Translations under genes and position numbers: made by a program
Notes under the pieces: model-generated
Seen by the model: only the letters and a program-made list of their open reading frames with translations
What the model was told of the DNA's origin: nothing
Database searches by the model: none
Source of the DNA: a virus
Virus record (IMG/VR): IMGVR_UViG_3300042401_000652
Span: 1-22,102 of that record
Length of the DNA stretch: 22,102 nt
Strand: one strand, 5' to 3'
Part shown: positions 10,207 to 15,748 of the stretch, one piece after another
Position numbering within the stretch: position 1 is the first letter of the stretch
How the letters are laid out: each line of letters starts with the position of its first letter

Positions 10207-10617
10207 ATGGCACTACAATTTAAAGTTTATGAACCATCCAACACGTTGGAATCTCTTGGAACAGTTAATGACATTATCCCTAACGGGAAATTGAAATTTG
10301 TTCCTGGAACTATTGACCGTTATAACAACGGTGTCATCAAGTCAATGAACATGATCCTCATTGACAAGACAGGTGCTAGCGCAACCTGTCCTTTGTCAAA
10401 GAGAGTTAGTGCAACCATCAAGAAGGCTCTTGACACTGGTTCCACTAAAGAGGAAGTTGCCTCTGTTATCTTCAACCTAGAAATTGGTGAAGATGAAGAT
10501 GGCAGAATGTTCATCATGGCACCTCGTGGTTCTTCTGGTGAGGAGGAAGAATTCTCCTTCACTCAACTAAAGAAGGATAAGGTTAAGACTACCTACGAAG
10601 ATCTAGTGGCTTTTTAA
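10207..10617 (+). CDS. Conserved-looking small acidic protein, first rightward gene
   Basis: This 136-residue protein has an N-terminal half rich in beta strands (LQFKVYEP, GKLKFVPGTIDRY, SMNMILIDKTGASATCPLS), a helix (STKEEVASVIFNLEI), an acidic stretch GEDEDG, a second acidic run SSGEEEEF and the tail KTTYEDLVAF. The compact beta domain plus acidic tail ending in Phe resembles the layout of single-stranded-DNA-binding proteins, but I see no family motif and call this only a guess. It has its own leader and its own terminator, so it is a single-gene transcription unit, as expected for an abundant early protein. The ATG at 10207 is preceded by AAAAACGAAA. Confidence 0.8.
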   Translation: MALQFKVYEPSNTLESLGTVNDIIPNGKLKFVPGTIDRYNNGVIKSMNMILIDKTGASATCPLSKRVSATIKKALDTGSTKEEVASVIFNLEIGEDEDGRMFIMAPRGSSGEEEEFSFTQLKKDKVKTTYEDLVAF

Positions 10618-10640
10618 GCCACTATTTCTTCTTTTATATA
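10605..10640 (+). terminator. Intrinsic terminator overlapping the stop codon
   Basis: AGTGGCT (10605-10611) and AGCCACT (10617-10623) form a perfect 7-bp stem around TTTTA, followed by the T-rich ATTTCTTCTTTT. The stem includes the last codons and stop of the 136-aa gene. Confidence 0.75.
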
Positions 10641-10969
10641 CAGGGTGGGAGTACTAACGTTTGGGTGGGCTTGTTACGCAGTCAATGCATCTGTGCAAAT
10701 CAGACATATACATAAATACAGTTGCGTATGTATATGGTGTGAGACTGTGTAATTAGTCCATCCTTACTAAAGTACAATGGTTTTATGGTAATGTACAATT
10801 TAATAAAGTTTTACACGGGAAAACTAAAACTTCATGTTGTACTTTACAAAGAATTTGTTGAGTGAATAAGAGTAGGAGTGACACCACACACATTATAATG
10901 AGGTGTTTTCGTAAGTGTCGTTTTTACTATTCACTATTTTATATAGCATTAACTAACAAACTAGTTGTT
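10618..10969 (+). other. Gene-free stretch with three long hairpins
   Basis: No convincing gene lies in these 350 nt. Three successive perfect inverted repeats are present: CATATACATA/TATGTATATG (10705-10714 with 10727-10736, 10 bp), TAAAGTACAA/TTGTACTTTA (10768-10777 with 10837-10846, 10 bp, enclosing AGTTTT/AAAACT) and AGTGAATA/TATTCACT (10861-10868 with 10928-10935, 8 bp, enclosing GACAC/GTGTC). They may belong to a leader for the ORF at 10970 or to a separate RNA. Confidence 0.55.
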
Positions 10970-11194
10970 ATGGAACTGATAATCTCTCCATCATTAATGA
11001 ATGCATTGATTGATAGTAGTATTGATAATGCTAATACTAAAGACTATTCTTTTGTTGATGAAAGATCGCAAAAGATGAAAGATTGTATTAGCATTATGGA
11101 AAATATGGGTGTTAGATCTATTGAATTAGATTTATCTGCTGATGATGATTCATTATTAGATGGATATAGTCTAGATGATCTTTGTTCATTTTAA
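10970..11194 (+). CDS. Small acidic protein of unknown function
   Basis: This is a 74-residue ORF between two structured non-coding stretches. It is helical at the N-terminus (SPSLMNALIDSSIDNANTK), has a central segment DYSFVDERSQKMKDCISIME, and ends with an acidic tail (LSADDDSLLDGYSLDD). The reading frame continues upstream to 10862, but the earlier residues lie in hairpin-forming sequence and look non-coding, so I start at the ATG at 10970. It could be the product of a structured-leader-controlled gene. It is unrecognised, and its isolation lowers confidence somewhat. Confidence 0.6.
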   Translation: MELIISPSLMNALIDSSIDNANTKDYSFVDERSQKMKDCISIMENMGVRSIELDLSADDDSLLDGYSLDDLCSF

Positions 11195-11387
11195 TAATTG
11201 TATGTGGCCACGTAGTGCCTTAATCCATCCGTGATGCATGTGAAAGCATGTAGGATGGACATACAATTTATACACACTCTCATCCAATTGTAGGTGTTTG
11301 CCTCTAGATCTAAATATTCTAGTATTCAATGGACATCAGGCTAAGGATAACCAACATTCAAGGATTACAGCCTTGTGAGAGTAATAA

Positions 11388-11534
11388 TGCGTCAAACCTG
11401 TTTCCCAAGGACAGGCAGTTGTAGTTGGTTATGTCCTTACTAGTTAGGATATAATCTGTAGACCTACTGTCACATAGATGACAGCATGTATAACATCGCC
11501 AAAGATGTGGGGCTACAACTGAACGCAGAGGGAT
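11388..11534 (+). repeat. Three-way-junction core, copy 1 of the large RNA
   Basis: P1 is TGCGT (11388-11392) with ACGCA (11523-11527). P2 is CCTGT/ACAGG (11397-11401, 11411-11415) with the loop TTCCCAAGG. P3 is CAGTTGTAG (11416-11424) with CTACAACTG (11513-11521), capped by internal hairpins including CTGTCA/TGACAG (11467-11472, 11479-11484). The unit ends in GCAGAGGGAT. TCCC in the loop could pair with GGGA of that ending as a pseudoknot. Confidence 0.75.
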
Positions 11535-11799
11535 AATGATATTCTAGTTATAATCTAACTGGTAAAACTTGCACTGATATGCAGGTAATCCTATACTAGA
11601 TAGGTTCTTGAATCCACGGGTTGACCACCGTGTAAAATAAAAAGGTTACATGAACAACTAAAGAATTCCTGTAAATGGCTTCTCAAATTGTAGGTTTATG
11701 AGTGTAAGAAAACTAGAACCTTCTGATGATACTAAAAGTATTAACCCTAGAAGCGGGGTTTAGTAGAGATATAATGCGAAGTGAAACTCTACTATTTAA

Positions 11800-11935
11800 T
11801 GCACCATAACTCACTTCCCAAGGGTGAGCAGTTGTAATAAACTAACTACAGACTAATATCTATAGGAGAACTATGTTCCTTGGCTCTGGTAAATAGAACC
11901 CAACCATGAGTAATTACAACTGAGTGCAGAGGGAT
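11800..11935 (+). repeat. Three-way-junction core, copy 2 of the large RNA
   Basis: P1 is TGCAC (11800-11804) with GTGCA (11924-11928). P2 is CTCAC/GTGAG (11810-11814, 11824-11828) with the same loop TTCCCAAGG. P3 is CAGTTGTAAT (11829-11838) with ATTACAACTG (11913-11922). It ends in GCAGAGGGAT. Relative to copy 1, four of five P2 pairs, two of five P1 pairs and one P3 pair are changed on both sides. CCTTGG at 11878-11883 could pair with CCAAGG of the loop. Confidence 0.75.
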
Positions 11936-11957
11936 TTGGAGGGTCAGATGCTCCCAA

Positions 11958-11990
11958 GCAGGTGCAAAGCCTGCATTTATTTATTCATTT
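11958..11990 (+). terminator. Probable 3' end of the large RNA
   Basis: GCAGG/CCTGC (5 bp, 7-nt loop) is followed by ATTTATTTATTCATTT, a T-rich but interrupted tract. It lies 15 nt before the next start codon, so some read-through into the accessory genes is likely. Confidence 0.5.
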
Positions 11991-15644: not shown

Positions 15645-15748
15645 AGTCAGGTGGTGGAATGGAGACACACATTGGAACTGCTTGTAAAAGTAATGGCACA
15701 TTGAGATAACCTTAGATGTGCGTGTAGGTTCAAATCCTACCCTGACTA
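15645..15748 (+). tRNA. Class II tRNA-like gene with abnormal anticodon arm
   Basis: The acceptor stem is a perfect 7 bp (AGTCAGG 15645-15651 with CCTGACT 15741-15747). D arm: GTG/CAC (15654-15656, 15666-15668) with a GG-bearing loop of leucine/serine type. T arm: GTAGG/CCTAC with loop TTCAAAT (15724-15740). Long variable arm: GCACAT/ATGTGC (15696-15701, 15716-15721), extended by TGAG/CTTA. The anticodon stem CATTG/TAATG (15670-15674, 15691-15695) closes a 16-nt loop, not 7. An alternative gives CATT/AATG plus ACT/AGT around GCTTGTAAA with a GGA bulge; its centre would read TGT. Amino acid therefore not assigned. No CCA is encoded. At 104 nt it is 15-20 nt longer than normal. Confidence 0.75.

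Follow-up and report, generated by a model that had tools for sequence, protein, structure and literature searches.

A three-way-junction RNA module with variable, exchangeable inserts in phage noncoding arrays

The noncoding array and its genomic setting

The window analysed here is a stretch of 22,102 nucleotides, positions 1 to 22,102 of IMG/VR virus record IMGVR_UViG_3300042401_000652. Its major head protein, portal, terminase and polymerase genes all match PHROG families, and the terminase is nearest to that of Leptolyngbya phage Lbo-JY46 (40% identity), followed by those of Cellulophaga phages and crAss-like gut phages. From these comparisons we infer that the virus, a freshwater phage, is distantly related to the crAss phages; any assignment of its host would likewise be a matter of inference. 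At the place where the window has RNA modules on the opposite strand, upstream of the terminase region, the isolated phage Lbo-JY46 (locus L131; PP438436.1, positions 106973-124847) carries small ORFs and 17 tRNA genes. Lbo-JY46 itself lacks the RNA module called B below (best E 0.04). The features of the window are as follows, with related loci designated by L and a number.

10604-10624: intrinsic terminator, preceding module U and the array region
10640..10960, + strand: module U, conserved noncoding stretch after the terminator (82% in L053 over 381 aligned columns)
10970..11194, + strand: small ORF, 74 aa from ATG, between modules U and C; no PHROG family
11198..11267, + strand: module C, branched hairpin domain with conserved GTAGTG-CTTAA-CCGTGATG
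11276..11382, + strand: module A, with closing stem ACTCTCA/TGAGAGT, hairpin CAAGG-ATTACAG-CCTTG and a variable insert between
11388..11533, + strand: module B1, three-way junction
11388-11392/11523-11527, + strand: B1 stem P1
11397-11401/11411-11415, + strand: B1 stem P2
11416-11424/11513-11521, + strand: B1 stem P3
11404-11406 (CCC) with 11530-11532 (GGG), + strand: B1 pseudoknot
11425..11512, + strand: insert D, held by B1
11545..11660, + strand: module E, about 115 nt (GGTAAAACTTG...GGTAATCCTATACTAG...), recurring in at least nine other loci
11680..11796, + strand: module F, linker leading to B2, in which hairpins are predicted; parts occur in L042, L005, L079, L112 and L012
11800..11934, + strand: module B2, three-way junction
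11800-11804/11924-11928, + strand: B2 stem P1
11810-11814/11824-11828, + strand: B2 stem P2
11829-11837 (CAGTTGTAA)/11914-11922 (TTACAACTG), + strand: B2 stem P3
11817-11819 (CCC) with 11931-11933 (GGG), + strand: B2 pseudoknot
11937..11976, + strand: module J, two small hairpins, recurring in L053, L068, L069, L109 and L135
12005..12196, + strand: next gene, 63 aa; L053 likewise keeps its start after B-J
15645..15748, + strand: tRNA-Leu-like element, keeping acceptor, D and T arms (AGTCAGGTGGCGGAATTGGTAGACGC...ACAGGTTCGAATCCTGTCCTGACTAC)

As part of an overall reading that we consider the best explanation, with somewhat better than even confidence, this array would sit in an early-gene region of a distantly crAss-related freshwater phage. 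The small ORF at 10970-11194 is missing at the corresponding place in L053, a pattern as if it had been inserted with or beside the RNA modules. Upstream of it, the conserved stretch at 10640-10960 is probably structured as well.

Module B folds as a three-way junction with a loop pseudoknot

A first-pass annotation had described 11196-11974 as a single structured RNA of roughly 780 nt, built from two covarying tandem units. All the sequence words that it named are present in both units at the positions given. The loop TTCCCAAGG lies at 11402-11410 and 11815-11823, and the composite TTCCCAAGG-N4-GCAGTTGTA occurs twice in the window compared with 0.01 expected from shuffles; no third copy was found in the window at up to three mismatches. 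The three helices of each junction pair as claimed, and the differences between unit 1 and unit 2 are compensatory, with CCTGT/ACAGG replaced by CTCAC/GTGAG in the hairpin, TGCGT/ACGCA by TGCAC/GTGCA in the closing stem, and CAGTTGTAG/CTACAACTG by CAGTTGTAA/TTACAACTG in the long stem. The reported lack of a credible ORF was likewise borne out, there being none of 60 aa or more between 11195 and 12005. The region as a whole folds better than shuffled sequence (z -2.8), as do unit 1 (z -4.1) and the 5' domain (z -3.4), whereas unit 2 does not do so significantly (z -1.5).

Homology between the two units is confined to their 3' portions (11388-11533 and 11800-11934), which constitute module B; the 5' parts are different modules, A (11276-11382) and F (11680-11796), which have the 10-mer AATTGTAGGT in common. 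The first reading also overlooked a pseudoknot between the hairpin loop and a 3' GGG(A): the CCC of the P2 loop is able to pair with GGG just 3' of P1. Both window copies have P1, P2, P3 and a pseudoknot of the CCC/GGG type, and both are recognised by model R1 (E 1.8e-21 for B1 and 8.4e-24 for B2, each copy belonging to the training set of the model). When B1 and B2 are folded thermodynamically, the same three-way junction results, except that two U-G pairs shorten the loop to CCCAA. P2 and P3 abut without a linker and therefore probably stack.

Comparison among phages supports both the fold and the pseudoknot. Across 35 aligned B copies, 96.9% of cells are paired and 13 pairs have changed on both sides, a level of covariation reached by none of 500 shuffles and by no slid register; with the pseudoknot variants included, none of 500 shuffles reached it on four of five measures, although kinship among the sequences inflates these controls. 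The loop and one strand of P3 were themselves part of the discovery pattern, which accounts for some of their invariance; outside the fixed part, pairing in helix 4 is less regular. P1 appears as TGCAC/GTGCA, TGTAC/GTACA, TGCGT/ACGCA, TGTAT/ATACA and TGTGT/ACACA, and P2 takes many forms.

The pseudoknot occurs as CCC/GGG, CAC/GTG and CCA/TGG, thus covarying at the middle pair and at an outer pair. A scan for the altered 3' side GAGHG, with the loop left free, returned nine loci. Five of these have GTG, in every case with the loop TTCACAAGG, and the other four have GAG, with left arms that are other or unclear. All the TTCACAAGG loops found pair off with GTG (L067, L094, L136, L137, L138, L141, L142 and L271); the loop TTCCAAAGG with TGG is a single case, in L067. 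Some variants, denoted B', have lost the loop pseudoknot and instead extend P1 to 8-13 bp, and one B in L067 is empty, its P3 being capped by a short loop. The claim of a real structured RNA whose shape is under selection is supported, and the covariation now extends across many phages.

Module B is widespread in viral contigs and matches no Rfam family

The exact 18-base pattern TTCCCAAGG-N4-GCAGTTGTA places B in at least 120 viral contigs of IMG/VR. In 84,980 prokaryote genomes (257 Gb, two strands) the same pattern was matched nine times, compared with 7.5 matches expected by chance. One of the nine is a contig of a lake metagenome bin in which the left arm of B runs to the contig end; the others were set aside as chance matches, the count being near expectation. 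In searches of whole records, the number of strong B copies in a record ranged from one to three and was most often one; all copies lay at a single locus.

Rfam gave no credible match to the window at gathering score or to the region at E up to 5, and BLAST of the region against 50,697 phage records returned chance matches only. No family or described system of the B design was found in Rfam or in the open-licence papers searched, and searches of such papers on crAss-like noncoding RNA, phage tRNA-like elements and phage three-way junctions gave no earlier description, which may exist elsewhere. B is a widespread, previously uncatalogued three-way-junction scaffold.

GOLLD and ROOL are large structured phage RNAs that often lie near tRNA islands (PMC12286853), and the first-pass annotation had taken the region for a member or an analogue of such giant ornate RNAs, some of which form multimeric cages, with an internal pseudo-twofold layout. 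The array resembles them in being large, elaborate and phage-encoded, with conserved and variable parts, and a tRNA-like element lies 3.7 kb downstream. However, membership was not upheld, since neither unit is matched by any Rfam family, with E values of up to 5 allowed, and the ROOL covariance model finds nothing in the window, the region or 24 related loci. GOLLD has a universally conserved 3' region and a less conserved 5' region; here it is B that is conserved, with varying position and copy number and with variable inserts inside it, and the window holds small, shuffled scaffold modules whose inserts can be swapped. Nor do relatives keep one arrangement, differing in the order and number of their modules. 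We consider a GOLLD- or ROOL-type RNA very improbable.

STAXI is described as two or three tandem copies of a pseudoknot structure, located near genes for DNA-handling proteins (PMC2864571). Of the B modules, the window has two and most relatives have one, and B precedes many gene families. The STAXI covariance model matched neither the window at gathering score nor the region at E up to 5.

The array is one permutation of shared modules

In the window the modules follow the order C-A-B(D)-E-F-B-J. The order is U-C-B-J in L053, from which the A-B1-E-F block is wholly missing; B(D) followed by C-J in L284; and C-B-E in L287, where B holds the insert of the window's B2. Since module order and number vary between relatives, there is no constant giant fold, and the stretch at 11196-11976 is, by sequence comparison, one permutation (C-A-B1-E-F-B2-J) of shared modules and not a fixed giant RNA. 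The proposed twofold layout is incidental, because most relatives have one B, some having two or three.

Module A, another junction, is represented by about 44 instances. Its hairpin loop can also pair outside the hairpin, with TTGTAG at 11288-11293 in the window. The combination of loop ATTACAG with TTGTAG occurs in the window, L039, L066 and L096, and as the arrays of L066 and L096 do not differ from that of the window, these amount to two independent sequences; most instances combine the loop GTTGCAA with TTGCAG or GCAG. The second hairpin of module J (11958-11974) looks like a weak intrinsic terminator.

Inserts are exchanged between phages and reused in unlike stems

The insert in P3 of B is about 29-239 nt long and differs from phage to phage. 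L034 and L114 have upstream flanks that are 98.5% identical over 206 nt and yet hold unrelated inserts. The converse also occurs, the same insert being found between flanks that are not alike and in stems that differ in sequence. With near-identical contigs grouped, 20 pairs of phage groups have the insert in common but not the upstream flanks, and 20 have the upstream flanks in common but not the insert.

Insert D, which is also held by B in L034, L262 and L284, occurs in three different stems overall, the others being CTTGCAG/CTGCAAG (L086 and L286) and TGTTATG/CATAACA (L261 and L265). The B2 insert recurs in B of L287. The insert of L085 is found in L086 within the stem AATGGTAA/TTACCATT, that of L120 in L045 within the stem AAATTGTA/TACAATTT, and the B insert of L101 is the insert of another scaffold, K, in L034. 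Module C stands free in the window, L053, L082, L284 and L287, but in L015 and L064 it is carried by a B as its insert. These comparisons show that inserts are exchanged and reused in unlike stems, and they show where modules begin and end. Judging by the rate at which inserts repeat, the pool may number on the order of 200, a rough figure that assumes equal frequencies.

Scaffold K (GGNCACCAGTTTCTTTGATA ... TATCAAAGTTTTAGGTG), seen in 21 stretches, has variable inserts, one of them in common with a B module; copies lie at L034:6736, L039:2057 (- strand) and L114:6802.

The exchange could also be that of an element acting as DNA, either a recombination hot spot or a small mobile element with inverted repeats at its ends. 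The P3 arms are indeed inverted repeats around variable DNA, and the inserts move between phages. This reading is, however, largely refuted by the covariation of pseudoknot and hairpin, G-U pairs included, and we give it hardly any weight: B shows a strong strand bias with respect to the next gene (81:2), there is about one locus per record, and inserts reach other stems that lack the B arms.

Genes and ribozymes adjacent to module B

In 81 of 83 cases (81:2), B shares its strand with the first ORF of 100 aa or more downstream. B often ends 30-50 nt before the next gene on that strand, and an ATG-started ORF begins no more than 60 nt past the end of B in 43 of 94 loci. The ORFs that follow belong to 65 families among the 94 loci, so B does not serve one gene.

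These positions would also fit a structured element acting in cis, either a 5' leader or an intergenic element, that protects the next gene's mRNA by stabilising or insulating it, for example as a block to ribonucleases, with the inserts as tolerated filler. The strand agreement, the ATG 30-50 nt beyond the end of B in many loci and the intrinsic terminator ahead of the region are all in keeping with such a leader, as is the closeness (within 60 nt) of B to a start codon in the 43 loci. RNA-virus exonuclease-resistant RNAs, which stop a 5'-3' exoribonuclease by means of a ring-like fold, contain a three-way junction whose hairpin loop pairs 3' of the closing stem, and B has a similar outline. 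The likeness is in outline only, as in B it is the 5'-proximal hairpin that forms the pseudoknot, and the third arm varies. Filler would not be expected to recur with 85-100% identity in scaffolds and phages that are not alike, the downstream genes are of 65 families, and the B' variants do without the loop pseudoknot. We regard a leader as possible but rather unlikely.

Hatchet ribozymes lie about 0.9-1.5 kb upstream of B, in the same orientation, in 7 of the 89 viral records. In addition to records L014, L105 and L109, they lie at the following positions.

L001:5635-5767: hatchet ribozyme
L004:6387-6553: hatchet ribozyme
L108:10327-10463: hatchet ribozyme
L139:3088-3239, - strand: hatchet ribozyme

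In 2015 hatchet ribozymes were known from metagenomic DNA only (PMC4604424); they are now placed in phage-like contigs, beside B RNA. In some relatives the upstream hatchet could cut the transcript and so define the 5' end of the RNA. The hatchet (RF02678) is a neighbour of B in seven relatives and not the same RNA, and it has no match in the window.

B itself might be a self-cleaving ribozyme or a metabolite riboswitch with a variable peripheral stem, given its small conserved core with a pseudoknot and the hatchet upstream in 7 of 89 records. Against this, the loop-pseudoknot core is swapped for a longer stem in B', no gene is constant downstream, and no ribozyme or riboswitch family matches, all of which makes the idea extremely doubtful. 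Taken together, insert reuse, the empty B and the B' variants are in keeping with a structural frame and not with a core that catalyses or binds a ligand.

A tRNA-Leu-like element carries a hypervariable stretch in place of two arms

In the tRNA-Leu-like element at 15645-15748, the anticodon and variable arms are replaced by a hypervariable stretch, of 26-196 nt among copies. Other copies begin at L058:7977, L040:10332 and L086:9572 (all + strand), and there are many more; within the examined loci, 135 of 165 copies lack an anticodon-arm-like start. The 5' pattern of the element occurs in at least 120 viral contigs, and in 8 of 39 records searched, ordinary tRNA-Leu being among these matches. 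None of its inserts was found in common with B inserts, and one match between inserts of module A and of this element spans 17 nt only. General tRNA mimicry by inserts was considered and dropped, because T-arm-like hairpins outside recognised tRNAs are few and all lie within the tRNA-like elements.

Engineered tRNA scaffolds keep acceptor, D and T arms as a stable frame and hold foreign RNA in one arm (PMC3753655), and engineered three-way-junction aptamer scaffolds are built on the same plan (PMC7395781). The anatomy of the tRNA-Leu-like element and of B is alike. Those are laboratory constructs, whereas the present ones are natural, and stabilisation would be carried over by analogy.

A possible role as an RNA display scaffold

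We favour, with somewhat better than even confidence, a reading of the array as a co-transcribed RNA display scaffold with exchangeable payloads, made of independently folding modules on the strand of the next gene. B would be the holder, with P1 closing the junction and the P2 loop clamping the 3' side of P1 through the pseudoknot, and P3 would present an insert domain that folds on its own. By analogy with the engineered tRNA scaffolds (PMC3753655), the scaffold may isolate and stabilise the insert. B would be transcribed together with the next gene, and the inserts would be the payload that is swapped between phages.

The exchange and diversity of inserts suggest conflict with hosts or other phages, and payloads may target, perhaps as decoys, factors of the host or of competitors that change fast. 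More tentatively, and as a proposal that we would call speculative, the natural display scaffolds (the three-way junctions A, B and K and the tRNA-Leu-like frame lacking an anticodon arm) might trade a pool of payloads that serve as decoys or effectors, RNAs that evolve fast and are directed at host defences or competing phages. A display scaffold as favoured above would be a natural counterpart of the aptamer-holding scaffolds of engineers, and an instance of RNA domain shuffling in viruses, in which autonomous domains move between unlike stems and phages. The B model provides a handle for finding such loci, each of which holds ready-made structured RNA domains.

Further recurrent noncoding sequences

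About 40 recurrent noncoding families were listed around B, some of which are coding or promoter or terminator sequence. Small stems in which a WCAGCA bulge is conserved (GGCTACTWCAGCA...AGTAGCCTGG) recur at L035:471-588 (array coordinates) and in L103, L080 and L094. These stems have a larger relative (GTGTGAAGAATACTTCAGCACAAAA...), and both are apparently further RNA motifs.
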